DNA of 64,000 bases from Coralloluteibacterium stylophorae (GCF_018122625.2 NZ_JAGQFT020000002.1:124001-188000), one strand, 5' to 3'; positions 37,152-61,772 are shown, counted from the first letter of the stretch. A program made the numbers and translations. The notes: generated by a model not told the origin, from the letters alone.

Positions 37152-37157
<6 letters not shown>
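37141..37157. terminator. Inverted repeat at GGDEF/ATPase convergence
   Basis: GCCTGAGCGGCTCAGGC is a perfect 8+1+8 inverted repeat. It contains the stop codons of both converging genes (37144-37146 on plus, 37152-37154 on minus). A bidirectional terminator is plausible, although no T-tract is present. Confidence 0.4.
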
Positions 37158-38261
<1,104 letters not shown>

Positions 38262-38333
38262 CGTCATCTCTCCTGTGGAATGCAGCTGCGGCCGTGCAGC
38301 ATGAATGCCGGCGGCCGCTTGCGCTAATCTTCC

Positions 38334-38349
38334 ATGTAAACGTTTTCAT
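38334..38349. promoter_or_regulatory. LacI-type operator between malK and zwf
   Basis: ATGTAAACGTTTTCAT (38334-38349) contains a 14-mer, TGTAAACGTTTTCA, that is identical to the site upstream of the lacI gene (61813-61826) and related to two sites at 57585 and 57636. It is near-palindromic around ACGT. A TAATCT box (38325-38330) just upstream on the plus strand could be the zwf -10. Binding would control both divergent units, the transporter ATPase and the Entner-Doudoroff operon. Confidence 0.75.
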
Positions 38350-38508
38350 CGACCACGGGCAAGGCGCGGCGCAGCGTGGGTGCCGGAACCGGCGAGGGCT
38401 GCGATCATGCTGTCCCCGCCGGGACAGCGAACCGGTTGCCGCCGGCAGCGCCCGGTGCCGACCGTGTACTGTCTCCGGCCCGACCACCCGCAGAGGCTCA
38501 CTTCCGCG

Positions 38509-45674: not shown

Positions 45675-46205
45675 TCAGTCGCCCGCGGTTTCGAGCACGC
45701 GCCCGACCAGGTCCTGCACCGGCCCCAGCGGCGCGACGACGACGGCGCGCTCGTCGGCCGCGGGCGGCTCCAGCGTCGCCAGCTGGTCGGCGAGCTGGGA
45801 GGGCGGCATGAAGTGGCCGCGGCGCGCGCGCATGCGCTGCATCAGCGTGTCGTGGTCGAGGTCGAGGTGGACGAACAGCACCTCGTCCGGCGCGGTCCGG
45901 CGCAGGCGCTCGCGATAGCTGCGCTTCAGCGCCGAGCAGGCCACCACCACCGCGTTGCCGGCCGCGCGCTCGCCCTCGATCCAGGCGGCGACGGCGTCCA
46001 GCCACGGCGCCCGGTCGGCGTCGGTCAGCGGCACGCCGGCGGCGAGCCGGGCGCGGTTGGCAGGCGGATGCAGGTCGTCGGCGTCCAGCAGGCGCCGGTC
46101 GAGCCGCTGCGCCAGCGCCTCGGCCAGCGTGCTCTTGCCGGAGCCGGACACGCCCATGACGACGAGGACCGGCGCGCCGGGCAGGAGGTCGCGCGAGGCG
46201 CTCAT
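45675..46205 (-). CDS. gntK: Gluconokinase
   Basis: Phosphorylates gluconate to 6-phosphogluconate, entering at Edd. The 176 residues carry Walker A GVSGSGKST (18-26), DADDLHPPANRARLAAGVPL, ALKRSYRERLR and the GntK signature RRGHFMPPSQLADQLATLE. ATG 46205 overlaps the stop of the second zwf (ATGA); the longer open frame lies within zwf and is rejected. It ends the minus-strand GH15-zwf-gntK group. The 177 bp beyond it towards the acyltransferase gene hold nothing recognisable. Confidence 0.93.
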   Translation of the reverse strand: MSASRDLLPGAPVLVVMGVSGSGKSTLAEALAQRLDRRLLDADDLHPPANRARLAAGVPLTDADRAPWLDAVAAWIEGERAAGNAVVVACSALKRSYRERLRRTAPDEVLFVHLDLDHDTLMQRMRARRGHFMPPSQLADQLATLEPPAADERAVVVAPLGPVQDLVGRVLETAGD

Positions 46206-47815
46206 CGGCGCGGCGTCCGCGTCTTCCGCGCGCCGCGGCGCTGCTCGTGCGCGCTGCGGTGCGGCGGCGGCCGTCGCCCCGGCGTCAGCGTCCGCCACGC
46301 GCGGCCGTCGAGCGCGAGCAGGGCGTCGGCCGCGGTCGGTCCCGCGGTGCCGGCAGCGTAGTTGGGAAAGTCCCCCGGCGGCTGCGCGGCCCAGCTTTCG
46401 AGCACCGGCTGCACGATGCGCCAGGCCGCATCGACCATCGCCGCGTCCTGGAACAGCCCGGCCTCGCCGCACATGCAGTCGTGCAGGAGGCGCTCGTAGC
46501 CGACGCTGTGCTCGAGCGGGAACCAGTCGCGGTAGCGGAAATCCATCCGCACCGGCGCCAGCGCCACGTTCTCGCCGGGGCGCTTGACGTCGAACTGCAG
46601 CGAGATGCCTTCGTCGGGCTGGATGTGCAGCACCAGCCAGTCCGGCCCGTAGCCGCCGACCGCGGTCTGCCGGAACGGCGCCAGCGGCGCCGGCTTGAAG
46701 CGGATCGCGATCTCCGTGGTGCGCTCGCGCAGGCGCTTGCCGGTGCGCAGGTAGAAGGGCACGCCGGCCCAGCGCCAGGTGTCGACGGCCAGGCGCATGG
46801 CGACGTAGGTCTCGGTGCCCGAGTCCGGCGCCACGCTGTCCTCCTCGCGGTAGCCCGGCACCGCCGCGCGCGCGATGGCGCCGGCCGCGTACTGTCCGCG
46901 CACCACCTCGTCGGGCGTCAACGGCCGCACCGCCTCGATCACCTCCGAGCGTCGCCGCGCCATCGCCTCGGAGGTGAAGGCCGCCGGCGGCTCCATGGCG
47001 ATCATCGCCAGCAGCTGGAACAGGTGGTTGGGCACCATGTCGCGCAGGCAGCCGGTCGGCTCGTAGAAGCGGCCGCGGCCCTCGACGCCGATCGTCTCGG
47101 CCGCGGTGATCTGCACGTGGTCGATGCGGTCGCGGTTCCAGACCGGCTCGAACAGGCCGTTGGCGAAGCGGAAGGCGAGGATGTTCTGCACCGTCTCCTT
47201 GCCGAGGAAATGGTCGATGCGGAACACCTGCGATTCGTCGAGCTGCGCGGCGACCACGGCGTTGAGGTCGCGCGCGCTCGGCAGGTCGTGGCCGAAGGGC
47301 TTCTCCACGATCACCCGTTTCCAGCCGCGTCCCTCGCCCTCGGCCACCAGTCCGGCGTGGCCCAGGGCTTCAGTCGCGGGCGCGAAGAAGCGCGGGGCGC
47401 TCGCGAGGTAGTAGAGCGTGTTGCCGCCGGTGCCGTAGCGCGGCGCGAGGTCCTCCAGCAGCGCCGCCAGGGCCCGGTAATCCTCGCGCCGGGTGAAGTC
47501 GCCGCGCAGGTAGTGCATGCGTCGGCTCAGCCAGCGCCAGGTGCCGGCGTCGATGCCGTCGGCCTCGAACTCGGTCGCCGGGTCCGCCGCCTGCGCGCGC
47601 AGGGCGTCGCCGATGGAGCGCCGCCAGCTGCGTTCGCTGATGTCGCCGTGGTCGAAGCCGACGATGGCGAAGCCGTCGCCCAGCCGCCCGGCGCGGCGCA
47701 GGTTGTAGAGCGCCGGCATGACCAGGCGGTGGGCGAGGTCGCCGCGCGCGCCGAACAGCACCAGGACGCAGGGCGGCGCCTGCTCGCAGGGCGGATCGCC
47801 GATGGCTGCCTTCAT
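46202..47815 (-). CDS. zwf: Glucose-6-phosphate dehydrogenase (second copy)
   Basis: A second Zwf, 537 residues from ATG 47815. The nucleotide loop is VLVLFGARGDLAHRLVMP (17-34), with Arg for the usual Thr. RVIVEKPFGHDLPSARDLN and RIDHFLGKETVQNILAFRFAN (from R199) are intact. It has a longer N-terminal segment and a basic C-terminal tail (PGRRPPPHRSAHEQRRG) absent from the other copy. Different cofactor preference or allostery is possible but not visible. It overlaps GH15 upstream and gntK downstream by ATGA at each junction. Confidence 0.93.
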   Translation of the reverse strand: MKAAIGDPPCEQAPPCVLVLFGARGDLAHRLVMPALYNLRRAGRLGDGFAIVGFDHGDISERSWRRSIGDALRAQAADPATEFEADGIDAGTWRWLSRRMHYLRGDFTRREDYRALAALLEDLAPRYGTGGNTLYYLASAPRFFAPATEALGHAGLVAEGEGRGWKRVIVEKPFGHDLPSARDLNAVVAAQLDESQVFRIDHFLGKETVQNILAFRFANGLFEPVWNRDRIDHVQITAAETIGVEGRGRFYEPTGCLRDMVPNHLFQLLAMIAMEPPAAFTSEAMARRRSEVIEAVRPLTPDEVVRGQYAAGAIARAAVPGYREEDSVAPDSGTETYVAMRLAVDTWRWAGVPFYLRTGKRLRERTTEIAIRFKPAPLAPFRQTAVGGYGPDWLVLHIQPDEGISLQFDVKRPGENVALAPVRMDFRYRDWFPLEHSVGYERLLHDCMCGEAGLFQDAAMVDAAWRIVQPVLESWAAQPPGDFPNYAAGTAGPTAADALLALDGRAWRTLTPGRRPPPHRSAHEQRRGARKTRTPRR

Positions 47816-49614
47816 CCGTGCACCTCCTTGCTGCTGGCGCGCTGGGCGCGCGCATGTTCCAGACGGTAGGCGGCATTCACCAGCGCCACGTGGGAGTAGC
47901 CCTGCGGGAAGTTGCCGAGCATGCGCCGACCGCGCGGGTCGTATTCCTCGGCGAGCAGGCCGACGTCGTTGCACAGCCCGGCCAGGCGCTCGAACAGCGC
48001 CTCGGCGTCCTCGAGCCGGTCCATCATCACCAGGCACTCCACCAGCCAGAAGCTGCAGGCGAGGAAGGTGCCCTCGCCCGGCGGCAGGCCGTCGCGGGCA
48101 TGGGTGTCCGCGCGGTAGCGCTCGACCATCCCATCGACCGTCAGCCGCTGCTCGATCGCCGCGACGGTGTTCACCACGCGCGGATCGTCCGGCGGCAGGA
48201 AGCCGACCAGCGGGATCACCAGCAGGGCCGCGTCGAGCCGGTCGGAGCCGTAGCTCTGCACGAAATGGCCGTCCGCATGCACCGCATTGGCCAGGATGTC
48301 CGCATGCACCTCGCGCGCGAGGGTGGCCCAACGGGCGCGCTCGGCGTTGGCGAAGGCCGCGGCCGGATTGCGCGAGGCGCGGTCGAAGGCCAGCCACGAC
48401 AGTACCTTGGAGTGGGTGAAGTGGCGACGCCCGCCGCGCACCTCCCAGATACCCTCGTCCGGCTCGCGCCAGCGCTTCTCCAGCTCGCGCAGGAAGGCGC
48501 GTTCCAGGTCGTAGCCGTGCCGGGCCGGCGCCATGCCCTTGCGCTCGGCGAGTTCGAGGGTCGCGATCAGCTCGCCGTAGACGTCGAGCTGGAACTGTTC
48601 CGCGGCGGCGTTGCCGATGTTGACCGGGCGCGAGTTCTCGTAGCCGGGCAGCCAGTGCGCGTCCCACTCCGCGAGGCGGCGCTCGCCGGCGACGCCGTAC
48701 AGCGCCTGCAACTGGCCCGGCGTGCCGGCGACGGCGCGCTTGAGCCAGTCGCGGAAGGCGATCGCCTCGTCGCGGTAGCCGGCGTTGATCAGCGCGACCA
48801 GCACGAAGGTGGAGTCGCGCAGCCAGCAGTAGCGGTAGTCCCAGTTGCGGTTGCCGCCGATTCGTTCGGGCAGCGAGGCCGTGGGCGCGGCGACGATGGC
48901 GCCGGTCGGCAGGTAGCTGAGGCCTTTCAGCACCACCAGCGAGCGGCGCACCAGCTCGCTCCAGCGTCCGGCCCGGGTGCAGCGTCCCGACCACTCCATC
49001 CAGAAGCGCTCGGTGCGGGCGAACGCGTCCTCGGCATCGATCGCCGGCGGCAGCTCCAGGTGCGAGGCACCGTGGCTGAGCACGAACGAGACCGTCTCGC
49101 CCTCGGCGACCTCGAACGCGGCTTCGGTGTTCAGGTCGTGCCCGTGCAGGGCGACCGGCGTGCGCACCACGATCTGGTCGGGCCCGGCCACCGCGCAGAT
49201 GCCGCCGTCGATGCGGGTGACCCAGGGAACGCGGCGCCCGTAGCCGAAGCGGACCACGAGTTCGCTGCGCATGCGCACGCGGCCACGCAGGCCGCGGACC
49301 CGGCGAACGAGGTGGCTGTGGTCGTGGCCGTTGTGGCTGGCGACCATGAAGTCGATCACCTCGACGACGCCGGTATCGGTCTCGTGATGGGTCTCGAGGA
49401 TCAGGCTGCCGTCGCGGTAGCGGCGCCGGCTGCGCGTGGCTGCCGCGGGGGCGAGCAGCCAGCGCCCGTGGTCGCGGGTGCCGAGCAGGGCGGCGAACAG
49501 GGCGTCGGAATCGAAGCGCGGCAGGCACAGCCAGTCGATGGAGCCGTCCCGGGCGACCAGCGCGGCGCTGCGGCAGTCGCCGAGCATGGCGTAGTCCTCG
49601 ATGCGCGCGGACAT
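47812..49614 (-). CDS. Glycoside hydrolase family 15 protein (trehalase/glucoamylase-like)
   Basis: A 600-residue cytoplasmic protein without signal peptide. An N-terminal beta domain (MSARIEDYAMLGDCRSAAL, DGSIDWLCLPRFDSDALFAALL) leads to an (alpha/alpha)6 barrel with the GH15 signature GNRNWDYRYCWLRDSTFVL and GNAAAEQFQLDVYGELI, and a C-terminal EEYDPRGRRMLGNFPQGYSHVALVNAA block. Bacterial relatives of this size act as trehalases, glucoamylases or glucodextranases. Coupling by ATGA to zwf and gntK suggests that the released glucose enters the Entner-Doudoroff pathway. Which alpha-glucoside is cut cannot be told. Confidence 0.9.
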   Translation of the reverse strand: MSARIEDYAMLGDCRSAALVARDGSIDWLCLPRFDSDALFAALLGTRDHGRWLLAPAAATRSRRRYRDGSLILETHHETDTGVVEVIDFMVASHNGHDHSHLVRRVRGLRGRVRMRSELVVRFGYGRRVPWVTRIDGGICAVAGPDQIVVRTPVALHGHDLNTEAAFEVAEGETVSFVLSHGASHLELPPAIDAEDAFARTERFWMEWSGRCTRAGRWSELVRRSLVVLKGLSYLPTGAIVAAPTASLPERIGGNRNWDYRYCWLRDSTFVLVALINAGYRDEAIAFRDWLKRAVAGTPGQLQALYGVAGERRLAEWDAHWLPGYENSRPVNIGNAAAEQFQLDVYGELIATLELAERKGMAPARHGYDLERAFLRELEKRWREPDEGIWEVRGGRRHFTHSKVLSWLAFDRASRNPAAAFANAERARWATLAREVHADILANAVHADGHFVQSYGSDRLDAALLVIPLVGFLPPDDPRVVNTVAAIEQRLTVDGMVERYRADTHARDGLPPGEGTFLACSFWLVECLVMMDRLEDAEALFERLAGLCNDVGLLAEEYDPRGRRMLGNFPQGYSHVALVNAAYRLEHARAQRASSKEVHG

Positions 49615-49705: not shown

Positions 49706-52700
49706 TCACTCGGTGCGGGCGTTCTCGATCACCACCTGCGCCGGAAGCTTGCGGATGCGCAGCTCGTCGCCGTTCCAGCCGGCGGGCTCGCCGTTGATGG
49801 TGGTGGCGCCGGGCAGGGTCGCATCCGGCCAGCGCAGCACGATGCCGCCCTCGGGCAGCTCGATCCCGCCCGGGATGTCGAGCAGGGTGCGCCCGTCGGC
49901 GCGCCGCAGGGCGTAGCTGAACTCGCCGAATGGCGTGCGCAGGCGGTTGATGGCGATGCCGTCGCCCTCGAGCCAGGCCGCGGGAATGCCGTCGGCCACG
50001 ACCAGGCTGGCATCCGCGTCACGCTCGTAGGCGAACAGGTCGAGCGCCGACCGGATGTAGTCGGAGGCGACCCAGCCGTGCGGCATGTCGCCGATGAAGC
50101 GCGGCTCGCGGTACTCGCGCGAGACCACTTCGGCCCACTGGTTCCAGGCGCCCGGACGGCGATCGGCGAAGAAGTAGTCGAGGAGCTCCTGCGCGCGGTG
50201 TCGCCAACCCAGGCGCACGAAGGCGGCGACGTTGCGCAGCTCGTAGGGCGTGTAGGCCTCCCAGTCCTTCTCGCCCTCGCGGCGGGCGACGAACTCGTCC
50301 CAGTAGCGCCGGAAGGTGCCCAGCAGCAGTTCACGCGGCAGCGCCGCCGCCTCGCCGCCGGGCGACAGCGCGATCGTGGTCGAGGTGGCGTCGAAGTCGC
50401 CGAGGTCGGCGGCACCGGGGATGTAGCCGATGTCGTGCAGCTCGGCGGCGGCGCGGATGGAGTCGTAGAGGTCGGCGCGGAACGCGTCGCGCGACGCCGC
50501 CATCCACTGCGCGTCGTCGGTCCCGAGCGTCGCGGCCATGCGCGCGGCGTCCTTGTAGCCCTTGAGCGCCCAGAAGTCGTCCCAGTACGAGTAGGCGGGT
50601 TTGGCCGAATAGCCCTCGTGGCTGATCGACGGCGGCATCAGCCCGTACTGCGGGCGACGGCCGGGCTCCAGGTTGGCCTCGGTACGCTCGGAGGCGCGCA
50701 GCTGGTCCATGTAGCGGGTGGCGGCCTCGACGTGCGGCCACATGCGCTCGAGCAGGTCGCGGTCGCGGCCGTAGCGCCAGACCTCGGAGATCAGGTGGAT
50801 CAGCTCGCCCTGGCTGTCGTTCTCGACGACCGGGTCCGAGCCGCGCACGTCGACGCAGCAGGGCACCTTGCCGTTGTCGAACTGGTAGGGCGCGTACCAC
50901 TCCAGGAACTCGCGCGCGGCATCGACGTGCCCCATCCGCACCAGGCCCTCGGAGGTCATCGCGCCGTCGCGGATCCAGGAGCGCGCGTAGGAGCGCGTGC
51001 CGGGCCGGATCATCGGGCCGTCGCGATTGATCAGGATGTGCGCGAGCGCCGTGCGCAGGGTATCGGCGATGCGCTGCTGTTCGCGCGGCAGGTGCACGGC
51101 GACGCGGTCGAGCTTCTGCTTCCACTGGTCCTCGACCCGGGCCTGTTCCAGGCCGAGGAAGCCGGCGACGTCGTCGCCGGCGTCCAGCGGCAGGGGCTGC
51201 CCGGACAGCGGGATGTCGAGGCCGAATGTGCGCGTCGCGTACGGTTCGAGCCGCACGCGGTAGAACATGACGCCCGAGGCGAGGCCGGTCTCGTCGTTGA
51301 CCTGCTGCGCGGTCGGGCGCGGGATGTCGGCGAGGTGACCGATCGCCATGCCGGCATCGAACGCGGTGGCGAAGAAGCCGTCCGGCTGCTGCAGCGGCAC
51401 GATCCGCGGCCGCCCTTCGGCGCGCACCGCGACGCCGTCCCAGGCCAGCGCGGTGAGCGGGCTCGCCCCGCCCGGCGTGGTCAGGAACTGCACCGGGTGG
51501 TTGACCTGGAACGGGCGCACCGCGAGCGCCAGGGTCAGGGTCCTGGCCTCGCCGGTGGCGTTCTCCAGGGTGTAGCGCGCGAGCATCCGCGACTCGTCGC
51601 GCTCGCCGGTGGCGAAGGCGGTGGTGGTGAGGTTCACCCCGTCGTGGGTCCAGCGCACGCTTGGGATCGGCATGTAGCCGCGCGCCAGCGTCTGCACCGG
51701 CTCGACGTCGGCCCAGGTGACCAGCCGGCGCTCGGCGTCGAGCAGGAACGGCTCGACGGTGATACCGCCGCGCTCGATCTCCAGCGCGCCGTCCTCCGAC
51801 ATCAGGCCCTGCTGCGGGCCGCCGTCGATGCCGACCAGGGTCCAGTAGCTCTGCTCGTCGTAGAAGCCGCGCGGGAACAGGCCGCGCGGCATCGATTTGG
51901 CCATGTCGGCGATCATCGCGTTGCGGCTGGCGCCGAAGGCGATGTCGCGCACGGCGACGTCCTCGAGCGCGTAGGCCGCGCCCGGTCCGGCATGCATCGC
52001 CAGCCGCACGTAGCGCGCCTCGGCCTCGGGCAGCTGCAGCCAGTCGCTGCCGCCGTCGCCGGTCCGTACCCGGCGCGCCTCGCGCCACTGGCTGCCGTCG
52101 TCGGAGAGCTCGACGTCGTAGTCGCCGGCGTGCAGGCCTTCGCGCCAGCGCAGGGTCAGGCCGCCGAGTTCGCGCAGGTAGCCCAGGTCGAGCGTCAGCG
52201 TCTGCTCGCCGCCCGCGGCGCTGGTCCAGGCGGTCGCGGTGTCGTGGTCGCCGGCGTCGGCGGCGGCGCTGCCTTCGGCGCTCGAGCTCGCCTCGAACAC
52301 CGGTGCCGGCGGCACCTCGGGCGGCACGGGCAGGGTCTGCAGCGCGAGCTGGTCGAAGCAGACCTCGCCGCGCCCGCCCTGGCTGGCGTACACGGTGAAC
52401 TCCACCTGCGCGCTCTCGCGCAGGCTGCGGTCCTCGCGGGGACCCCAGGCGAAGTCGATGTGGCGCTTCTTGTAGCGCACGTCGGTCCACTCGGTCGGGA
52501 CCTGGGTCTCGGGTCGGTTGACCCACCACACGTTGTCGCCGCTGTCGTCGATCAGCTTGAACTGCAGGTCGTTGACCGGCGCCTGCCCGCGCATGCGGAA
52601 GGAGAAGGCGTAGTTGTCCGGGTAGTCGAGCGGCAGCCGGCGGCGGATCGCGGCATGGCCGGAGACGCCGTTGAAGTCGTAGTCCAGGCACAGCGCGCGG

Positions 52701-52921
52701 CCATCGGGCGTGTCGACCTGCCGCAGCGCGGCGTCGACCTGGTCGGACGCGGTCGCCTCCCAGGCGCCGACGTCCTCGAAGTCGTCGATCACCCGGACCG
52801 GGCCGGGCTCGCCGACCTGCGCCGCGGCAGCCGCGCTGCCGGTGGCCAGCAGCGCGGCGATCGCCAGGCGCGACAGGCGCAGCGGGACGGGACGGAATCG
52901 TGGGTTCGGGGGCAGGAACAC
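49706..52921 (-). CDS. Discoidin (F5/8C) domain protein with (alpha/alpha)6-type catalytic region
   Basis: A large exported protein of 1071 residues, starting at GTG 52921 with AGGAG six bases upstream. A signal peptide ends at about 34 (SAAAAAQV). A beta-rich CBM11-like module (about 42-195, VRVIDDFEDVGAWEA, YAFSFRMRG) is followed by a discoidin/F5-8C module (about 205-330). The remainder resembles six-hairpin glycosidases: DTLRTALAHILINRDGP, RSYARSWIRDGAM with acidic residues suited to catalysis, then SYWDDFWALKG. I cannot name its GH family. It follows the ABC permeases by 84 bp, so periplasmic or surface processing of the imported glycan is likely. Relatives are annotated 'coagulation factor 5/8 type domain-containing protein'. 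Confidence 0.82.
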   Translation of the reverse strand: MFLPPNPRFRPVPLRLSRLAIAALLATGSAAAAAQVGEPGPVRVIDDFEDVGAWEATASDQVDAALRQVDTPDGRALCLDYDFNGVSGHAAIRRRLPLDYPDNYAFSFRMRGQAPVNDLQFKLIDDSGDNVWWVNRPETQVPTEWTDVRYKKRHIDFAWGPREDRSLRESAQVEFTVYASQGGRGEVCFDQLALQTLPVPPEVPPAPVFEASSSAEGSAAADAGDHDTATAWTSAAGGEQTLTLDLGYLRELGGLTLRWREGLHAGDYDVELSDDGSQWREARRVRTGDGGSDWLQLPEAEARYVRLAMHAGPGAAYALEDVAVRDIAFGASRNAMIADMAKSMPRGLFPRGFYDEQSYWTLVGIDGGPQQGLMSEDGALEIERGGITVEPFLLDAERRLVTWADVEPVQTLARGYMPIPSVRWTHDGVNLTTTAFATGERDESRMLARYTLENATGEARTLTLALAVRPFQVNHPVQFLTTPGGASPLTALAWDGVAVRAEGRPRIVPLQQPDGFFATAFDAGMAIGHLADIPRPTAQQVNDETGLASGVMFYRVRLEPYATRTFGLDIPLSGQPLPLDAGDDVAGFLGLEQARVEDQWKQKLDRVAVHLPREQQRIADTLRTALAHILINRDGPMIRPGTRSYARSWIRDGAMTSEGLVRMGHVDAAREFLEWYAPYQFDNGKVPCCVDVRGSDPVVENDSQGELIHLISEVWRYGRDRDLLERMWPHVEAATRYMDQLRASERTEANLEPGRRPQYGLMPPSISHEGYSAKPAYSYWDDFWALKGYKDAARMAATLGTDDAQWMAASRDAFRADLYDSIRAAAELHDIGYIPGAADLGDFDATSTTIALSPGGEAAALPRELLLGTFRRYWDEFVARREGEKDWEAYTPYELRNVAAFVRLGWRHRAQELLDYFFADRRPGAWNQWAEVVSREYREPRFIGDMPHGWVASDYIRSALDLFAYERDADASLVVADGIPAAWLEGDGIAINRLRTPFGEFSYALRRADGRTLLDIPGGIELPEGGIVLRWPDATLPGATTINGEPAGWNGDELRIRKLPAQVVIENARTE

Positions 52922-53005: not shown

Positions 53006-53842
53006 TCAGCCCTTGACGCTGCCCAGCAGCAGGCCTTCGATGTAGTGCCGCTGCAGCAGCAGGAACAGCGCCAGCACCGGCAGTACCGTGACCACCGCGC
53101 CGGCCATCATCATCTCGCTGTCCTGCACGTGCTCGCGCGAGAGCGCGGCCAGCGCCACCGGCAGCGTGTAGTTCTCCTGGTCGGTCAGCACGATCAGCGG
53201 CCACATGAAGTCGTTCCACGCGGCCATGAAGGTGAAGATCGCCAGCGTCACCAGGATCGGCTTGAGCACCGGCAGCACGATCTGGCCGAAGATGCGGAAC
53301 TCGCCGGCGCCGTCGATGCGCGCGGCCTCGAGCAGCTCGTCGGGGATCGAGCGCGCGTACTGGCGCACCAGGAAGATGCCGAACACCGTGGCCAGCATCG
53401 GCACGATCACGCCACCGTAGGTGTTGACCAGCCCCAGGCCCTTCATCATCAGGAACAGCGGCAGCATGGTCACCTGCGCCGGGATCACCAGCGCGCCGAG
53501 CATGGTCTTGAACAGGCCCTCGCGGCCGGCGAAGCGCAGCTTGGCGAAGGCGTATCCGGCCATCAGGTTGAAAGCCAGCGAGATCAGGGTGATCGCGCCC
53601 GACACCAGCAGGCTGTTGAACAGGTAGCGGCCCATGCCGGCGCGGGCGAACAGCTCGGTGTAGTTGTCGAGCGTCGGCGCCTGCGGCAGCAGCGGCGGCG
53701 GGAACTGGCTGGCCTCGCCCTGCGCCATGAACGACACCGACACCATCCACAGCAGCGGCGCCAGCGCGATCGCGGCGAGACCCGCCAGCAGGCCGTTGAT
53801 CAGCGCGCCGGTGAGGCGCGAGGCGCCGACCTGCCGGCTCAT
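53006..53842 (-). CDS. Carbohydrate ABC transporter permease (MalG/UgpE type)
   Basis: Inner-membrane permease of 278 residues with six predicted helices. The first follows residue 14 (LINGLLAGLAAIALAPLLWM), and the EAA loop that docks the ATPase is EAARIDGAGEFRIFGQIVLP (about 186-205). It pairs with the MalF-type permease, whose stop overlaps this ATG (53842). The ATP-binding partner is not adjacent; the MalK-type gene at 37.2-38.3 kb is the only candidate in the window. Confidence 0.93.
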   Translation of the reverse strand: MSRQVGASRLTGALINGLLAGLAAIALAPLLWMVSVSFMAQGEASQFPPPLLPQAPTLDNYTELFARAGMGRYLFNSLLVSGAITLISLAFNLMAGYAFAKLRFAGREGLFKTMLGALVIPAQVTMLPLFLMMKGLGLVNTYGGVIVPMLATVFGIFLVRQYARSIPDELLEAARIDGAGEFRIFGQIVLPVLKPILVTLAIFTFMAAWNDFMWPLIVLTDQENYTLPVALAALSREHVQDSEMMMAGAVVTVLPVLALFLLLQRHYIEGLLLGSVKG

Positions 53843-54720
53843 GCGTAGCCCCGCTTGCGCGCGATGCGCATCAGCACGGTGGTCACGGTCAGGATGATCG
53901 CGAACAGCAGGAAGGCCACCGCCGAGGCACGGCCCAGGTTCCACCACTTGAAGCCTTCCTCGTACATGAAGTACAGCACGCTTACCGTGCTCTGCAGCGG
54001 GTCGCCCTGGGTGATCACGTAGGGCTCGGCGAAGAGCTGGAAGTAGCCCGACAGGGTGATGATGCTCACCACCAGCAGCACCGGCGCCAGCATCGGCAGG
54101 GTGATGTGGCGGAACTGCTTCCAGGCGCCGGCGCCGTCGATGCGCGCGGCCTCGTAGAGATCGCCGGGGATGGCCTGCAGGCCGGCGAGGAAGATCACCA
54201 TGTTGTAGCCGAAGTTCTTCCACACCGCGAACAGGATGATGGTCGGCATCGCCCAGCGCGGGTCGCCGAGCCAGTCGACCGGATCGATGCCGACCAGGCC
54301 CAGGCCGTAGTTCACCAGGCCGTAGCGGGTGTGGAACAGGTAGCGCCAGATCACCGCCACGGCGACGAGCGTGGTCACCACCGGCGCGAACAGCGCGGTG
54401 CGGAAGAAGCCCTTGAAGCGCGCCACCTGCGAGTTCAGCAGCATCGCCGAACCCAGCGACAGCGCGATCGACAGCGGCACGCCGACCACGACGAAGTAGA
54501 AGGTGTTGCCGAGGGCCTTCCAGAACAGCGGCGTGCGCAGCAGTTCCAGGTAGTTGTCGATGGCGACGAAGCGCAGGTTGCGCAGGTCGGCCAGCGCATA
54601 GAGGTCGAAGTCGGTCGCGCTCAGCACCACGGCGGCGGCGACCGGCACGGCGAAGAACACGCCAAGCACGATCATCGCCGGCGCGACGAACATCCAGCCG
54701 GCCAGGTTGTCGCGCCTCAT
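53839..54720 (-). CDS. Carbohydrate ABC transporter permease (MalF/UgpA type)
   Basis: Permease of 293 residues with about six membrane helices, starting MRRDNLAGWMFVAPAMIVLG. The ATPase-docking EAA loop is EAARIDGAGAWKQFRHITLP (about 201-220). The large periplasmic loop of E. coli MalF is absent, as in UgpA-type permeases. ATG 54720 overlaps the solute-binding gene stop and its own stop overlaps the next permease gene, so the three are translationally coupled. The longer open frame upstream lies in the binding-protein gene. Confidence 0.93.
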   Translation of the reverse strand: MRRDNLAGWMFVAPAMIVLGVFFAVPVAAAVVLSATDFDLYALADLRNLRFVAIDNYLELLRTPLFWKALGNTFYFVVVGVPLSIALSLGSAMLLNSQVARFKGFFRTALFAPVVTTLVAVAVIWRYLFHTRYGLVNYGLGLVGIDPVDWLGDPRWAMPTIILFAVWKNFGYNMVIFLAGLQAIPGDLYEAARIDGAGAWKQFRHITLPMLAPVLLVVSIITLSGYFQLFAEPYVITQGDPLQSTVSVLYFMYEEGFKWWNLGRASAVAFLLFAIILTVTTVLMRIARKRGYA

Positions 54721-56051
54721 GCGGCGTCTCCTTCCTGCGCACGCTGCGCTTCCTGGTCGAGCACCCAGCGGCGCTTGGCGAGGATGCCGTCGACGCGGCG
54801 GTCGATCTCGGCCGCGCCTTCCTCGACCGTGTACTGGCCCGCGACCACGCGCTCGGCGATGCGCTGCATCTCGGTGACGATGCGCTCCCACTCGGCGACC
54901 TTGGGCGTGGATTCGACCCGCTCGAGCTGCTCGCGGAACGCCGCGGCATGGGGGTCGTCGGCCAGCGAGGGGAACTCCCAGGTCGAGCGGCGCGGCGGCA
55001 GGTCGCCGGTGAGCGCGTGGAAGCGCTGCTGCACCGCGGGCTCCGAGAGGTATTCGATCAGCGCCCAGGCCGCGTCCTTGTGCTCGGAGGAGCGGAAGAT
55101 CACCAGGCTGCTGCCGCCGGCGCTCGACAGGCCGGGGCCGTCCTTGCCGGGCAGGGGCGCGGTGGCCCAGTCGTCCTGCTGCGAATCCGGCAGGCGTTGC
55201 TGGAACTCGGCGATGTTCCAGGGCCCGGAGACGTAGAAGCTGTAGTAGCCGTTGCCGAACTCGTTCCAGACGTTGGAGATCTGGGTGTTGGCGGCGACCG
55301 GGGCGAGCCGTTCCTCGAAGATCGAGGCGTAGAGCGCGAGCGCGTCGCGGAAGCCCTGCGAGCTGAAGTTGCCGTAGCGGCCGTCGTCGCGCAGCAGCGG
55401 TTCGTCGGCCTGCAGGCCGAAGGCGAGCAGCTGTTCGAACTCGTTGAGCGGCAGCAGCGCGGCGAAGCGGTCGGGGCCGACCTGGGCCTTGATCGCGCGC
55501 ATCTGCGTCATCCACTCGTCCCAGGTGGTCGGAGGATGGTCGAAGCCGGCCTCGGTAAGCAGGTCGCGGCGATAGAAGAACAGGCGCGTGTCGACATACC
55601 AGGGCACGCCCAGGGTGCGACCGTGGATGACGTTGGTGTCCCAGATCGCCGGGAAGTAGTCGCCGGCATCGACGGTGGCCGACGCGGCCACGCGGGCATC
55701 CAGCGGCTCGAGCGCGCCCAGCGCGTCGAACTCCGGCACCCAGGTGTTGCCCAGCGGCACGATGTCGGGCAGGGCGTCCGCGGCGAAGGAGGTCATGAGC
55801 TTCTCGTGCGCCGACTTCACCGGAAGCTGCTGCAGCTCGACCCGGATCCCGGGATGGCGCGCCTCGAAGTCCGGGATCAGCTGGGCGACGACCTCGCCCT
55901 CGCGGCCCATGACCCAGAAGTCGAGGGTGACGACGTCGGCGTCGCCGCGGCCGCAGCCTGCCAGGGTCGCGCACGCGAGCGCGAGCGACAGTCCGGCGCG
56001 CGCGCGGTTCGTGAGCGCCGGGCGTCGCGGCGTGATCGTCCTCGCGGCCAT
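54717..56051 (-). CDS. Extracellular solute-binding lipoprotein (family 1, sugar)
   Basis: A 444-residue sugar-binding protein. The signal ends in the lipobox TLAGC (lipid cysteine C33), which is unusual for a Gram-negative binding protein, most of which are soluble. The two-lobed family 1 pattern is clear: VTLDFWVMGREGEVVAQLIPDFEARHPGIRV (in parts), ALPDIVPLGNTWVPEF, GVPWYVDTRLFFYRRDLL and AGGSSLVIFRSSEHKDAAW. Tryptophans and acidic residues suited to oligosaccharide stacking are present. ATG 56051 lies 5 bp after the GH144-like stop. The substrate is unknown; a gluco-oligosaccharide is inferred from neighbours. Confidence 0.92.
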   Translation of the reverse strand: MAARTITPRRPALTNRARAGLSLALACATLAGCGRGDADVVTLDFWVMGREGEVVAQLIPDFEARHPGIRVELQQLPVKSAHEKLMTSFAADALPDIVPLGNTWVPEFDALGALEPLDARVAASATVDAGDYFPAIWDTNVIHGRTLGVPWYVDTRLFFYRRDLLTEAGFDHPPTTWDEWMTQMRAIKAQVGPDRFAALLPLNEFEQLLAFGLQADEPLLRDDGRYGNFSSQGFRDALALYASIFEERLAPVAANTQISNVWNEFGNGYYSFYVSGPWNIAEFQQRLPDSQQDDWATAPLPGKDGPGLSSAGGSSLVIFRSSEHKDAAWALIEYLSEPAVQQRFHALTGDLPPRRSTWEFPSLADDPHAAAFREQLERVESTPKVAEWERIVTEMQRIAERVVAGQYTVEEGAAEIDRRVDGILAKRRWVLDQEAQRAQEGDAA

Positions 56052-56056
56052 CCGGG

Positions 56057-57568
56057 TCAGTCGTTCCGCGGCGCGGGAACGTGCGGATCCGGCGCGGTGT
56101 CCGGGGCCTGCGGCGCGTTCACCGGCTCCAGCCAGCCGCCGCGGAAGCCGGCCCGGACCAGGCCGGTGCGGATGTGCGGGTTGTTCCGCATCACCTCCCA
56201 CACGAAGTCGTCGCGGTAGTTCTCGATCATCGCCAGGATCGGGCCCTGGTCGATGCCGATGTACTGGCTGGCCACCCAGCCGAAGCCGGGGATGATCTGC
56301 CCGGTCTTCAGCTCGACGTTGTCGTAGCGGAAGCTGCGGTTGAACGAATCGAGGAAGCCGTAGTCGGCGTAGATCTGGTCGCCGTAGAGGTCATGCATCT
56401 CCTGCACCGCCGGGATCACGATCTCCGGCGCGAACGGCAGGGATGCCGCCGCCGCGGTCGGCGCGATGGTGCCGTCGTCGAACTCGTCGGGGAAGCCGAT
56501 GCCGCCGCGCGCGGAGTAGTGGCGGAACTCGCGGGTCTCGCCCTGGTAGGTCTCGGTGGCGACCTGCGGCCCGTCGCTCGCGGTCAGGCCCCAGATGTTC
56601 TCGCCGTAGCCCTGCCAGCGCATCGGGTTGTCGATCGCGTAGGCGCGCTGCGCGTAGGTCGCGCGGCGGCTGTTCTCGAAGTAGTCGAAGCCGCGCTCGC
56701 GCATGTAGCGGTCGCGGATGCCGCGGAAGTCGACCCAGACGTGGCTGTACTGGTGGCCGAAGTGCGGGCCGAAGCCCAGGTGCTGCTGGTCCTCGTACAG
56801 GCCCCAGGACCGCTCGTAGGTCCTGGTCCAGGCCTGCCAGGCCTCCGGGGCGATCGGGTGGGTCGGCGAGGCGAGCGCGAGCAGGTAGACCAGCATCGCC
56901 TCGTTGTAGCCCTGCCAATCGTTGGCGATGGTGCCGCTCTCGGGGAACCAGCCCATCGAGATCAGCGGCGGGCGCTCCTGCAGGAAGCTCCAGTCCACGC
57001 GCCGGTAGATCGCCTCGGCGAGCTCGCGGATCTCCGCTTCGTCGGCGCCGTCGCCGCCGTAGTAGGACTGCGCGAAGAGCACGCCGCCCAGCAGCAGCGC
57101 GGTGTCGACCGAGGAGAGCTCGACCCAGCTGTCGTAGCGCGTGCCGCTGTCGAGGTGCAGGAAGTGGTAGTAGAAGCCCTTGTGCCCGGCGGTGCCGGAT
57201 TCCTCCGGGCCCATCGGCGCATCGTGCAGGAAGCGCAGCGTGGTCAGCGTGCGCTCGCGCGCCTGTTCGCGGGAGACCCAGCCGTGCTCGGCGCCGATCG
57301 CGTAGGCGGTCAGCGCGAAGCCGACGGCGGCCACGCTGGAGAAGGGCTCGTCGTAGGGATAGCGGTCAGGAACCAGCCCGTTGTCGGGGTTGGCGGTATC
57401 CCAGAAGTATCGGAACGTCCTTTCCTGCAGATCCTCGAAGAGGGGCGGCAGGGGAGGGCGCTCGGTATCGGCGACCTCGTCCTGCCGCGGTTCCAGCGCG
57501 GGCGTGGCGCAGCCTGCGGCGAGCACGGCGAGGGCGGAGGCGAGGACGGTGGCGGCGAGTCGGTGCAT
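56057..57568 (-). CDS. GH144-like glucanase lipoprotein (glucoamylase family, PF10091 type)
   Basis: A 503-residue lipoprotein with lipobox LAAGC (lipid cysteine C20). The mature part is an (alpha/alpha)6 barrel with the hallmarks of the 'glucoamylase'/GH144 group: RTFRYFWDTANPDNGLVPDR (in parts), SVAAVGFALTAYAIGAE, GHKGFYYHFLHLDSGTR, SSVDTALLLGG, WQGYNEAMLVYLLAL, GENIWGLTASDGP and FGWVASQYIGIDQGP. Characterised GH144 enzymes are endo-beta-1,2-glucanases, and the same fold occurs within cyclic beta-1,2-glucan synthases. The ATG at 57568 is preferred to a GTG at 57577. Two LacI-type operators stand upstream. Confidence 0.88.
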   Translation of the reverse strand: MHRLAATVLASALAVLAAGCATPALEPRQDEVADTERPPLPPLFEDLQERTFRYFWDTANPDNGLVPDRYPYDEPFSSVAAVGFALTAYAIGAEHGWVSREQARERTLTTLRFLHDAPMGPEESGTAGHKGFYYHFLHLDSGTRYDSWVELSSVDTALLLGGVLFAQSYYGGDGADEAEIRELAEAIYRRVDWSFLQERPPLISMGWFPESGTIANDWQGYNEAMLVYLLALASPTHPIAPEAWQAWTRTYERSWGLYEDQQHLGFGPHFGHQYSHVWVDFRGIRDRYMRERGFDYFENSRRATYAQRAYAIDNPMRWQGYGENIWGLTASDGPQVATETYQGETREFRHYSARGGIGFPDEFDDGTIAPTAAAASLPFAPEIVIPAVQEMHDLYGDQIYADYGFLDSFNRSFRYDNVELKTGQIIPGFGWVASQYIGIDQGPILAMIENYRDDFVWEVMRNNPHIRTGLVRAGFRGGWLEPVNAPQAPDTAPDPHVPAPRND

Positions 57569-57584
57569 GGCGGTCACAGGGCTC

Positions 57585-57709: not shown

Positions 57710-60688
57710 TTACCAGCTCATGCCGAAGGTGAGCTTGAAGGTGCGGGTGGGCAGCAGGATCGCGTCGCCGTTCCGCGTCAGGTAGTCCTCGTTGTACACG
57801 CCCGGATCGCCCTTCCACGTCTCGTAGCTCGTGTAGTTCCGCGCGTTGGTGACATTGAACACGTCGCCGCGGATGCGGAAGCTGAAGTCGGTGCCGGTGT
57901 AGAACACCTTCTCCAGCGCGAGGTCGAGCTGCTTCTGCCCGAAGGTGGTGTCGGGCTTGACCGACTCGAAGAAGCAGTTGGCGTTGTCCGGAGCGTCGTA
58001 GCAGTTGGTCGCGGTCAGGTAGTTCGGCGTCGCCAGCACGAGCTTGGCCGAGCCGGTGATGCCCCAGGGCAGGTCGTAGATGCCGGTGGCGACCAGGCGG
58101 TGCTTCGGGATGCCGATCGAAGGGTAGAACGGCTGCCCTTCGAGCGTCGGGTAGTCGAAGAAGTAGTGCTCGTCGGTCGCGGCGGCGTTCTGCCGGTTCT
58201 CGGACGAGTCGCTGTAGGTGTAGGCGAAGGTGACACCCCAGCCCGACGCCTCGGTGTAGGGCTTCTCCGCCGACAGCAGGACCGAGTTCAGTCGCGTCTC
58301 GACGCCGTTGTCCAGCAGGATCAGGCTGCCGTAGCCCGGGATCGGCTGACCCCATGGCTGGCCGCCGTAGGTGCCGCCGTTGTCGCGGAACTCGCCGTCG
58401 GCGAAGCGGTTGCCGAGCCGGTAGTAGACGCCGTCCTTGCTCTCGACGTGCGAGATCGTGCCCGACACGTTCCAGTCGCCCCAGGTGTCGCGGATGCCGA
58501 GGCTGAACTGGTCGGAGTAGGGCACCTTCAGGTCGTTGTTCAGCAGGTCGATCTCGCCGCCGACGTTCGGATTGGCGGCCGCCAGCTCGGCCAGTGCCGC
58601 GGGATCGTAGAAGGACTCGTCCCAGTTGACGCAGGTCGTCTGCGTGGCGGGATCGCAGGGCCGGATCGGCGAGTTGAAGTCGTAGGCGTAGCGGACGAAG
58701 CCGAAGCGAGCCTGCTCGAGCTGCAGGTAGTCGAACAGGTTGCGGTCGTAGGAGCGGCCGGCGCCGCCGAAGATCACCCGCGACTCGTCGGCGTCCTCGC
58801 TGATGTCGTAGGAGAAGCCGAAGCGGGGCGCGAACGCACCGTCGAAGTTGTCGCGGTTGCTGCCGGTGCTGATGTAGTCCTCGATGTCGTAGTCGGTGTC
58901 CTGGATGTTGGCCCAGTTGCGCAGGGCCTCGACCAGATCCGGCGGCGTCTCGAAGTCGGTGTAGGCGGGCGTCTCCTCGTAGTCGTAGCGCACGCCGAGG
59001 TTCAGGGTCAGGCGGTCGGTGACGTCCCAGTCGTCCTGGAAGTAGATGCCGTACTGCTTGTTGTCGGACTCGATGGCCGGGTTGCCGCCGGGCAGCGTGG
59101 CGCCGAACTCCACCCGCGTCGGGATCGTCAGGCTCTCCTCGAGGCTGTAGTAGTACTGCGGGTTGTAGTTGATCTGCTCGAGCGCGCGGACCTTGACCTG
59201 CTTGTACTTGATGCCGGTCTTGAAGGTATGCCCTTCGAGGCCGAAGTAGCTCAGGTCGTTCTGGAAGGAGTAGCCCTCCTGGCCCTTGTCCTGGTAGTCG
59301 GCGCTGCCACCGGTGCGCAGCACGACCAGCCGCTCGCGCTCGCCGCGGTCGATGGTGTACTGGCGGCCGAACTCGTTGACCGCGGGCAGGCCGATGCGGG
59401 TCGCGTCCTCGTAGGTGAGGTGCGCGTCGTTCAGCCAGTTCAGGCCGCTGAACTGGTAGCGCAGGTCGACGCGGGTCTCGGTGTTGTCGGTGTTGCTGGC
59501 GAAGCTCGACACGTTCGGGCCGTTGCCGGCGCCCTGGCTGTCGGTCTCCAGGCGCTTGCGGAAGGTCAGCTCGACCAGATGCTCGTCGCCGGGGATGAGG
59601 CTGAGCTTGCCGAAGTAGAGGTCGGAGTCGAACGGCGCGTTGAAGACCCCGGTCTGCTCGCGGAGTTCGGGCGGCAGGTCCTCGATGGCGTAGCTCTCGC
59701 CGGGGATCACGTCGCGCGGCGAGACGATGCTCTTGTTCTCGTAGGCGACGAAGAAGTGCAGGAGGTCCTTGACGATCGGGCCGCCGAAGGTGACGCCGTA
59801 CTGCTCATCGACCGACTCCACCTTCTCGCCGTTCGCGAGCTCGGTCGGCGTGGAGGCGCGCCAGCCGTCGGCGGTGCGGTCCCAGAAGAAGTCGCCGTGG
59901 AATTCGTTGGTGCCGGACTTGGTCACCGCGGTGACCGCGGCGCCGCTGATCTGGTCGTACTCGGCCTTGTAGTTCGAGGTGATGACCTTGTACTCGCCGA
60001 TCGCCGACTGCGGGAACGGGTTGCCGCGGCTCTGGTCCTGACCGGAGACGCCGCCCTTGAGCACGTAGTTCTTCTGGCCGACACCGTCGATGAAGACGTT
60101 GATCGCATTGGACGATTGCGCGCCGCTGCGCAGCTGGCTGGTGCCGTTGGCCGAGGTGATGAACTGCACGCCCGGAACGGTGTCGGCGAAGGCCAGGAAG
60201 TTGCGCGAGGCCTGCGGAAGCGCGTCGATCTGCTTCTGCGAGACGTAGTTCGCGACCTCCGAGGTCTTGGTTTCCTCGATGCGGGTGCCGGTGACGGTGA
60301 TCGACTCGAGCGTGGTCGCGTCGGAGCTGGCCTGCGCCTGCTCGCCCGCCACGGGGACGTCGAGGGTCGCGGTCTGGCCGATGCGCAGCTGCACCGTGCG
60401 CGAGCCGGCCTGCCCGCCGGCGAGCACCGTGACCTCGTAGGTGCCCGGCGGCAGGCCTGGAATGAAATAGCTGCCGCCGGCGTCGGCGGTGACGCTGCGC
60501 GACAGGCCGGTGGCGGTGTTGCGGACCTGGACCTGCGCGTTGGCGGCGGCAGTGCCGCCGGCGGTGACCTGGCCGCGCAGTGTGGCCGAGGTGCTCTGCG
60601 CGTAGCTGTCGGTGGGGAAATACATGGCCGGCGCGAGCGCGCCGATCATCGCGGCGAGCGCGCACTTCCTGATGTTGGGGTACTTCAT
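57710..60688 (-). CDS. TonB-dependent receptor (Oar-type, with N-terminal carboxypeptidase-regulatory domain)
   Basis: Outer-membrane receptor of 992 residues. After the signal peptide (about 1-31, ending DSYAQ) comes a beta-sandwich typical of CarboxypepD_reg/Oar receptors (TLRGQVTAGGTAAANAQVQV, GLPPGTYEVTVLAGGQ). The TonB-box region and plug follow (VTGTRIEETKTSEVANYVSQ in part, NVFIDGVGQKNYVLKGGVSGQDQSRG in part), then a 22-stranded barrel ending in FKLTFGMSW with the C-terminal aromatic. It should take up oligosaccharides too large for porins. It lies 70 bp downstream of lacI. ATG 60688 has GGAGGG upstream. Confidence 0.93.
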   Translation of the reverse strand: MKYPNIRKCALAAMIGALAPAMYFPTDSYAQSTSATLRGQVTAGGTAAANAQVQVRNTATGLSRSVTADAGGSYFIPGLPPGTYEVTVLAGGQAGSRTVQLRIGQTATLDVPVAGEQAQASSDATTLESITVTGTRIEETKTSEVANYVSQKQIDALPQASRNFLAFADTVPGVQFITSANGTSQLRSGAQSSNAINVFIDGVGQKNYVLKGGVSGQDQSRGNPFPQSAIGEYKVITSNYKAEYDQISGAAVTAVTKSGTNEFHGDFFWDRTADGWRASTPTELANGEKVESVDEQYGVTFGGPIVKDLLHFFVAYENKSIVSPRDVIPGESYAIEDLPPELREQTGVFNAPFDSDLYFGKLSLIPGDEHLVELTFRKRLETDSQGAGNGPNVSSFASNTDNTETRVDLRYQFSGLNWLNDAHLTYEDATRIGLPAVNEFGRQYTIDRGERERLVVLRTGGSADYQDKGQEGYSFQNDLSYFGLEGHTFKTGIKYKQVKVRALEQINYNPQYYYSLEESLTIPTRVEFGATLPGGNPAIESDNKQYGIYFQDDWDVTDRLTLNLGVRYDYEETPAYTDFETPPDLVEALRNWANIQDTDYDIEDYISTGSNRDNFDGAFAPRFGFSYDISEDADESRVIFGGAGRSYDRNLFDYLQLEQARFGFVRYAYDFNSPIRPCDPATQTTCVNWDESFYDPAALAELAAANPNVGGEIDLLNNDLKVPYSDQFSLGIRDTWGDWNVSGTISHVESKDGVYYRLGNRFADGEFRDNGGTYGGQPWGQPIPGYGSLILLDNGVETRLNSVLLSAEKPYTEASGWGVTFAYTYSDSSENRQNAAATDEHYFFDYPTLEGQPFYPSIGIPKHRLVATGIYDLPWGITGSAKLVLATPNYLTATNCYDAPDNANCFFESVKPDTTFGQKQLDLALEKVFYTGTDFSFRIRGDVFNVTNARNYTSYETWKGDPGVYNEDYLTRNGDAILLPTRTFKLTFGMSW

Positions 60689-60758: not shown

Positions 60759-61772
60759 TCAGCGGGTGGATGCGGAGCCGGCGCCACAGCTGGCGCGCAC
60801 GACCAGTTCCGGCGAGACCGTGTGGGTCTCGACCTCTGCAACGGTGGACTCGGTGACGACGGCGATGAGCCGGTCCATGGCGTGCCGGCCGAGGTCGGCG
60901 ATTCGTACCCGGCACGTGGTGAGCGGCGGGTTGACGAAGCGCGAGATCGGGATGTCGTCGAAGCCGGCCAGCGCGATGTCGACGGGCACGCGCAGCCCGG
61001 CAGCGGCGAGCGCGAACAGGCAGCCGATCGCCATGCTGTCGTTGCCGGCGAAAACCGCGTCGGGACGTCGCGCCATCGCCGCGATCGCCTGTCCGGCGCG
61101 GTGTCCGGATTCCTCGGTGAACCCGCCCGGGAGAACCTCGGGCTCCTGATCGGGCGCCAGTTCGGCGAGGGCGTCGCGGTAGCCGCGCAGGCGCTCGGCG
61201 GCCTCGAAGTTGTCCTGCGGGCCCGCGATGTGGGCGATGCGCCGGTGGCCGAGCCCGATCAGGTGGCGCACCACGGCCTGGGCGCCGCCGTAGTTGTCGA
61301 CGCTGAAGCTCGGCACGCGCTCGTCCGCGCACTGCGTGTTCATGACCACGGTCGGCAGGCCGGCACGCAGATGCGTGCCGAGGAATGCGGCGTCGGCGTA
61401 GGGCGACATCAGCAGCAGCCCGTCCACGCGACCGTGCAGGGCGCGGATCGCGGCCGCGGCCTCGGCGGCATTGCCGTGCGAGCTCGACACCATGAGGTGC
61501 AGGCCGTGCGCGCGCGCGGCGAGATCCAGGCCGCGGATCAACTCGGAGAAGAACTCGCCGTAGAGCTCGGGCAGCAGCGCGCCGACGGTGTGGGTGCGGC
61601 GGGTGATCAGGCTGCGCGCCATGCCGTTCGGCGCATAGTCGAGGCGCTGCGCCGCCTTGAGCACGCGCGCGCGGGTCGCGTCCGACATGTTGCCGCGGCC
61701 GTTCAGTGCCCGGGACACGCTGGCGACCGAAACATTCGCCTCCCGCGCGACGTCCTTGATCGTCGCGGTCAT
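60759..61772 (-). CDS. LacI-family transcriptional regulator
   Basis: A 337-residue repressor. The N-terminal HTH and hinge read TIKDVAREANVSVASVSRAL, NGRGNMSDATRARVLKAAQRLDY (in parts) and PNGMARSLITRRT. A periplasmic-binding-protein-like ligand domain follows (VGALLPELYGEFFSELIRG, FAGNDSMAIGCLFAL, DIALAGFDDIPISRFVNPPLTT). The effector is probably a sugar of the local pathway. It lies upstream of the TonB gene, and an exact copy of the 14-bp operator overlaps its own promoter (61811-61838), so autorepression is expected. Confidence 0.93.
   Translation of the reverse strand: MTATIKDVAREANVSVASVSRALNGRGNMSDATRARVLKAAQRLDYAPNGMARSLITRRTHTVGALLPELYGEFFSELIRGLDLAARAHGLHLMVSSSHGNAAEAAAAIRALHGRVDGLLLMSPYADAAFLGTHLRAGLPTVVMNTQCADERVPSFSVDNYGGAQAVVRHLIGLGHRRIAHIAGPQDNFEAAERLRGYRDALAELAPDQEPEVLPGGFTEESGHRAGQAIAAMARRPDAVFAGNDSMAIGCLFALAAAGLRVPVDIALAGFDDIPISRFVNPPLTTCRVRIADLGRHAMDRLIAVVTESTVAEVETHTVSPELVVRASCGAGSASTR

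Follow-up and report, generated by a model that had tools for sequence, protein, structure and literature searches.

The window analysed here, a 64,000-nucleotide stretch of the Coralloluteibacterium stylophorae genome (GCF_018122625.2 NZ_JAGQFT020000002.1:124001-188000), carries on its minus strand a gene (49706..52921) for a protein of 1071 residues, in which a signal peptide is followed by a CBM11-like module, a CBM32 module, a β-sandwich and an (α/α)6 barrel. The narrower claim, that this protein is an active exported glycosidase of a β-1,2-glucan operon, is very probably correct. The more specific proposal, to which we give about an even chance, is that it acts as an inverting α-glucosidase that would cut the α-1,6 bond of the ring glucan CbG16α, or of the fragments released from it by enzymes of glycoside hydrolase (GH) family 144. 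The proposal builds directly on the sequence, the modules, the predicted fold, the conserved residues, the operon and the distribution of the gene.

The structure of CbG16α, its closure by GH186 and the activity of the GH144 enzyme XcSGL have been established by others. CbG16α, the osmoregulated periplasmic glucan that Xanthomonas and related bacteria make, is an α-1,6-cyclized β-1,2-glucohexadecaose, an unbranched β-1,2 ring with one α-1,6 bond and no side chains. In Xanthomonas campestris it acts as a virulence factor; how the Xanthomonas GH186 enzyme makes it, by closing a β-1,2-glucan through that α-1,6 bond, was explained only in 2024 (PMC11228985). The ring resists β-glucosidase, and the JACS assays added the GH144 enzyme CpSGL together with β-glucosidase (PMC11228985). 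GH144 is not expected to cut the α-1,6 bond, and therefore fragments containing it would remain, a gap that an exported α-glucosidase-like protein of the same operon fits. An initial annotation of this DNA had suggested the trimming of branches or substituents; since the X. campestris glucan is unbranched and closed by a single α-1,6 bond (PMC11228985), this is not the best reading, and the ring bond is the likelier target.

Gene, modules and fold

The reading frame starts with a GTG codon preceded by AGGAG, and an alternative GTG at 52888 would give 1060 residues. Its base composition is of the coding type (GC content of 0.96 at third versus 0.50 at second codon positions), and the plus-strand reading was discarded, its translation having no match. 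A single scan gave at least 344 relatives, the 80 best of which are 53-58% identical to it, so that the conservation of the protein is far beyond chance. The initial annotation had the coordinates and length right, and its placement of the gene directly behind the ABC (ATP-binding cassette) permease genes agrees with the 85 bases that separate the start from the second of these (53006-53842); the strand, which is minus, was a point absent from it. Export, also proposed there, is borne out by a visible Sec-type signal at the N-terminus (RLSRLAIAALLATGSAAAAAQ), and the two motifs that it quoted, RSYARSWIRDGAM and SYWDDFWALKG, correspond to residues 643-655 and 778-788.

Two carbohydrate-binding modules (CBMs) precede the catalytic unit, the first of which had been described simply as CBM-like and can now be called CBM11-like. 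It spans approximately residues 40-201 (52319..52804; features are on the minus strand unless stated otherwise), is matched by PF03425 in 38 of 50 orthologs (E up to 0.1, best 1.1e-5) and not in the window protein itself, and its model, with a predicted local distance difference test score (pLDDT) of 95.7, resembles CtCBM11 (1v0a) with a template modelling (TM) score of 0.73. The second is the F5/8 type C module already recognized in the initial annotation (residues 211-317, 51971..52291; PF00754, E 3.8e-13, 50.1 bits against a cut-off of 28.2), whose fold resembles CBM32 modules (4zxe, TM 0.82).

The catalytic unit (residues 325-1071) comprises an N-terminal β-sandwich with linker helices (approximately residues 325-611, 51089..51949) and an (α/α)6 barrel (approximately residues 612-963, 50033..51088). 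Its AlphaFold2 model (pLDDT 88.9, predicted TM score 0.91) and structure comparison confirm the (α/α)6 fold suspected for the C-terminal region. In the fold search, which the initial annotation had proposed, the best VIA-align match is a GH15 dextran dextrinase (9ju0; Z 30.4, 3.8 Å, 561 residues aligned, for the whole model), followed by a tied group of isomaltose glucohydrolase (28.0), fungal glucoamylases (27.9), GH116 (27.6), GH65 (27.2), bacterial glucoamylase (27.2), GH133 (26.5) and glucodextranase (26.1), to which GH78, GH125 and GH63 structures also belong (Z 26-28). The first ranks by Foldseek are held by GH94 phosphorylases, which come first, and the GH15 dextran dextrinase; the position of GH94 outside the best 50 VIA-align matches carries no weight against that family.

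Library-model counts refer to 62 members, residue counts to 81 sequences and locus counts to 80 related loci. The catalytic part of the window protein has no match in Pfam and only weak GH15-type matches, beneath the cut-offs, in NCBIfam, and sequence searches of the PDB, both with the single sequence and with a profile, returned no relative of it. All 62 members match the glucoamylase-type NCBIfam model TIGR01577 (best 2.9e-9; 24.9 bits, the cut-off being 820.7), 58 weakly match the GH78 six-hairpin model PF17389 (best 9e-7; about 24.7-29.4 bits in orthologs against a cut-off of 24.5, which a few barely reach) and 48 match the Pfam model GDE_C of GH133 (best 8e-6; 20.9-22.2 bits in orthologs against a cut-off of 21, which a few barely pass). 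The window protein itself matches neither of the last two, nor the GH15 model PF00723. A comparison of its profile with that of the window's own GH15 protein and relatives aligned 523 columns across the two domains (P 1.3e-13), W-x-R-D and the base Glu falling at matching positions, and a lone GH133 protein gave P 8.7e-8 over 329 columns, better than lone GH15 proteins. We conclude that the protein is a six-hairpin glycosidase near, yet outside, GH15 and GH133, and its family is in neither Pfam nor NCBIfam. The earlier statement that the catalytic part could not be placed in a known GH family holds in that no library model claims the barrel, but a distant relationship to GH15/GH133-type inverting α-glucosidases can be recognized.

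GH15 membership was rejected on account of scores beneath the cut-offs of the curated GH15 models. With GH15 the protein shares a β-sandwich joined to an (α/α)6 barrel, W-x-R-D at subsite -1, Glu residues in the α5-α6 and α11-α12 loops and the significant profile match, whereas it differs in its identity of approximately 12-16%, in having S-I-S-H-E-G-Y in place of the W-E acid motif, in the CBM11-like and CBM32 modules that precede the catalytic unit and in belonging to a β-1,2-glucan operon. GH133 (amylo-α-1,6-glucosidase, GDE_C) is a six-hairpin α-1,6-glucosidase family that aligns over the 329 columns mentioned above; its W-M-D-A motif, which holds the acid, is however absent from the 1071-residue protein in the alignment with one GH133 protein. 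GH144 shares the (α/α)6 barrel, as seen in XcSGL (PMC12102758), and an ortholog of XcSGL lies in the same operon, presumably acting on the same glucan. Nevertheless, GH144 is a family of single-domain endo-β-1,2-glucanases, whereas the protein studied here adds a β-sandwich and two CBMs, and membership was rejected because no sequence relation exists (no PF10091 match, while the neighbouring gene scores 289 bits). GH94, GH65, GH63 and GH116 have the fold in common, with close Z or E-values, and gave no sequence match above cut-off in the library scans.

Candidate active site and proposed mechanism

In GH15 enzymes, two catalytic Glu residues sit in the α5-α6 and α11-α12 loops, and the glucose in subsite -1 is bound through its O4 and O6 by an Arg-Asp pair (PMC12446779). 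The corresponding -1 motif would be W649-x-R651-D652 (50966..50977), which is invariant in 81/81 sequences and has WLRD as its counterpart in the GH15 protein of the window. E931 (50129..50131), in the α11-α12 loop between helices 907-919 and 949-963 of the model, aligns at the sequence level with the GH15 motif LAE and, being in register with the GH15 base, fits the role of general base. The candidate general acid is E769 (50615..50617; pLDDT ~58), proposed from its spacing and from its position in the α5-α6 loop, between helices 721-744 and 779-799 of the model; the GH15 profile alignment is gapped around it, and D781 (50579..50581), at the start of α6, is an alternative. E769, D781 and E931 are each invariant in the 81 sequences, and W-x-R-D, E769 and E931 are retained not only in paralogs (~540 bits) but also in a very distant clade whose members lack a signal peptide. 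The candidate catalytic acids are thus kept, and no match to a non-glycosidase family appeared, two points on which the glycosidase assignment of the initial annotation stands.

Which bond is cut and with what stereochemistry, what E769 and E931 do and in which order the steps run are inferred. The CBM11-like and CBM32 modules would hold the glucan, and the ring would be opened either by GH144 at a β-1,2 bond or by the 1071-residue protein at the α-1,6 bond. The pocket formed by R651 and D652 would bind the glucosyl unit at subsite -1, with E769 protonating the glycosidic oxygen and E931 activating water, if these roles are assigned correctly. In this way the only bond that GH144 and β-glucosidases are not expected to cut would be removed, and the resulting β-1,2-gluco-oligosaccharides could be imported by the ABC transporter and degraded to glucose, which may enter the Entner-Doudoroff pathway, encoded nearby. 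Cutting within the ring and exo-wise cutting after trimming are two variants that sequence cannot tell apart. Two glucose-6-phosphate dehydrogenase genes, at 38305-39966 on the plus strand and 46202-47815 on the minus strand, stand less than 10 kb apart in the window, with the Entner-Doudoroff genes between them.

The operon and its relation to GH186

Upstream of the gene and on the same strand follow, in order, genes for a LacI-type regulator (60759..61772), a TonB-dependent receptor (57710..60688), a GH144 lipoprotein (56057..57577), a solute-binding lipoprotein (54717..56051) and the two ABC permeases (permease 1, 53839..54720, and permease 2, 53006..53842, both assigned by sequence), the genes of the binding protein and the permeases being joined by 4-base overlaps, including that between the two permeases. 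The closest solved structure to the binding protein is 3uor, an ABC transporter sugar-binding protein, followed by Lin1841 (5ysb), which we take to be a Listeria protein binding β-1,2-gluco-oligosaccharides. For the GH144 lipoprotein (PF10091, E 2.2e-86), the nearest solved protein is XcSGL (XCC2207, PDB 8XUL; E 6.5e-219), a characterised β-1,2-glucanase (PMC12102758). The probable motor of the permeases is a MalK-type ABC ATPase (37152..38267), homologs of which, in the same orientation as the target, lie downstream of it in 41 of the 80 loci.

That the protein shares a system with the GH144 lipoprotein, as the initial annotation had supposed from position, is upheld by conservation: a GH144 gene lies upstream on the same strand in 77/80 loci, the remaining three being on short contigs, and the same holds for the binding protein in 78, the TonB receptor in 72 and the LacI regulator in 71. 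This gene order is kept throughout the Lysobacteraceae and beyond, and genomes of f44, a different family in the phylum, have the same cluster. Literature searches with Xanthomonas locus tags near XCC2207 turned up nothing beyond XcSGL and a list of receptors. Directly downstream in the window, a gene at 47812-49614 (minus strand) encodes the GH15/TREH-like protein used above for comparison, which lacks a signal peptide (PF00723, E 8.4e-69); it was rejected as a standing partner, since it lies beside none of the 80 orthologs and is a local addition. An acyltransferase-3 gene near the locus (44343-45497, minus strand) could serve to acylate periplasmic glucans and was not found beside other loci.

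The distribution of the gene links it to GH186, the enzyme type that makes the bond which the 1071-residue protein is proposed to cut. XccOpgD of GH186 is, however, an unrelated protein performing the opposite reaction, and its gene co-occurs without being linked, lying on other contigs. Among 247 genomes of the family, 105 have both the gene and GH186, 30 the gene only, 10 GH186 only and 102 neither, an association that is strong by Fisher tests ignoring kinship (1e-29 by genomes, 5e-4 by genera). The ring-closing GH186 clade is marked by W76, D343 and R477 (PMC11228985), and the GH186 proteins were read in 39 genomes. The gene is carried by 16/16 genomes with the W76/D343 type, two of which have W for R477, whereas all ten genomes with GH186 only lack the ring-closing residues (Y76, with A or S at 343). 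The GH186 proteins of another twelve carriers are all of the other type, and in one carrier one of two GH186 copies was read; the one-sided Fisher test of ring-closing type against gene presence gives 0.0014 for the 38 settled genomes, again ignoring kinship. The idea that GH186 alone explains the presence of the gene was therefore rejected, as the type of GH186 matters. The window genome has one copy 61% identical to XccOpgD, with W76, D343, R477 and the general acid present, and a second, OpgG-like copy. More generally, the family holds two GH186 types (L190-L233), the first carrying W76/D343/R477 and the second Y76, in most cases together with A or S at 343, and in genera g279 and g285 only the second was found.

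The operon also exists without the gene. In genome G284 (L145) the other operon genes are present, and the gene is missing from its place, which is flanked by the permeases and a gene for a small membrane protein. In f2 genomes (L147, L148) the operon stops after the permeases, and a gene for a β-glucosidase of GH1 type is found nearby (family by sequence reading); all these genomes are free of GH186. The gene is thus an added module, dispensable for linear β-1,2-glucan. Conversely, it is present in genomes of two other families that have no GH186, and the notion that it serves only glucan makers was rejected on this ground. The relation is thus a one-way implication, in which ring makers have the gene and carriers need not be makers, and this fits scavenging as well as recycling.

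Competing activities and significance

Several observations weigh against cleavage of the ring bond by an inverting α-glucosidase. The E769 and E931 loops have pLDDT values of 51-63, so that the active-site geometry is not established; the alignment behind the model did not include distant homologs. D781 is as invariant as E769, and thus an alternative acid. A GH15-type pocket must accept a -1 glucose bearing β-1,2-glucan at O2, unless the end is trimmed first. The fold ranks beneath the first are nearly equal and include the β-specific GH116, with GH94 first by Foldseek. As regards distribution, the tests ignore kinship, the whole operon also tracks GH186, and within the family only G284 (L145) separates gene from operon; moreover, the gene is found where GH186 is missing (30/135 in the family draw, plus the genomes of f44), and 12 of the carriers checked have GH186 of the other type only, so that its role cannot be confined to the ring glucan that the organism itself makes.

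Some of these points would suit an exported β-1,2-specific exo-enzyme that shortens GH144 products, for example by supplying the transporter with glucose or sophorose. Such an enzyme, unlikely in our estimate, would be at home in an operon with GH144 and a Lin1841-related binding protein and in the many carriers without ring-closing GH186, and the β-specific families GH94 and GH116 share its fold and rank close. The profiles, however, point to GH15, GH133 and GH78, which are α-bond families, the Arg-Asp motif and base Glu are in register with inverting α-glucosidases, and in several genomes where a GH1-type β-glucosidase is encoded nearby (L147, L148) the operon does without the gene. A further reading is a GH15/GH133/GH78-like enzyme removing another α-linked sugar or substituent from β-1,2-glucans, or a side chain from another glycan using the same transporter, as the weak GH78 six-hairpin matches and two binding modules of different type might suggest. 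This is improbable, given that the modifications described for such glucans, succinyl and acetyl groups, are not sugars (PMC11842490), that CbG16α has no side chains (PMC11228985) and that the gene is tied to the GH186 type.

Since the top VIA-align match is a dextran dextrinase, a retaining transglucosidase of that kind, which would move a glucosyl or gluco-oligosaccharyl group and remodel or make the α-1,6 bond, was also considered, all the more as the same two Glu residues serve both mechanisms, which sequence does not distinguish (PMC12446779). We give it little credence: the residue before W950 is Ala in 77/81 sequences and Gly in four, the window protein included, and by inspection this Ala is the one common to inverting GH15 enzymes (PMC12446779); besides, the operon serves uptake, and GH186 already closes the ring. 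A non-catalytic glucan-binding protein of the operon would account for the two binding modules, and catalysis by the 1071-residue protein is inferred only, but the invariance of the candidate Glu, Asp and Arg residues in 81 sequences and their retention in paralogs and the very distant clade make this highly improbable.

Two clades related to the protein extend the picture. Paralogs of approximately 1040-1070 residues (L127, L128, L129, L132, L135, L136:14472-17603), with ~540 bits to the profile, have an F5/8C module and the barrel and lack the CBM11-like module, and in L136 the gene is divergently oriented beside a GH144 operon. The distant clade without signal peptide (L130:9163-11403, L131:9185-11602, L156, L158) belongs to other gammaproteobacteria and has the same candidate catalytic motifs; its genes adjoin one for a DedA-like membrane protein and, in L131, also one for a GT4-like glycosyltransferase, and its L130 member has no match in Pfam or NCBIfam. 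In the literature searched, which consisted mostly of open papers and took in few subscription papers or preprints and no CAZy entries, the gene is not mentioned and no enzyme for the α-1,6 bond of CbG16α is named.

If the protein does cut the α-1,6 bond of CbG16α, a function would be assigned to a family that 135 of the 247 searched Lysobacteraceae-type genomes carry and that Pfam and NCBIfam lack. The recycling and scavenging of such ring glucans, by non-producing bacteria too, could then be tested directly with a single recombinant enzyme.

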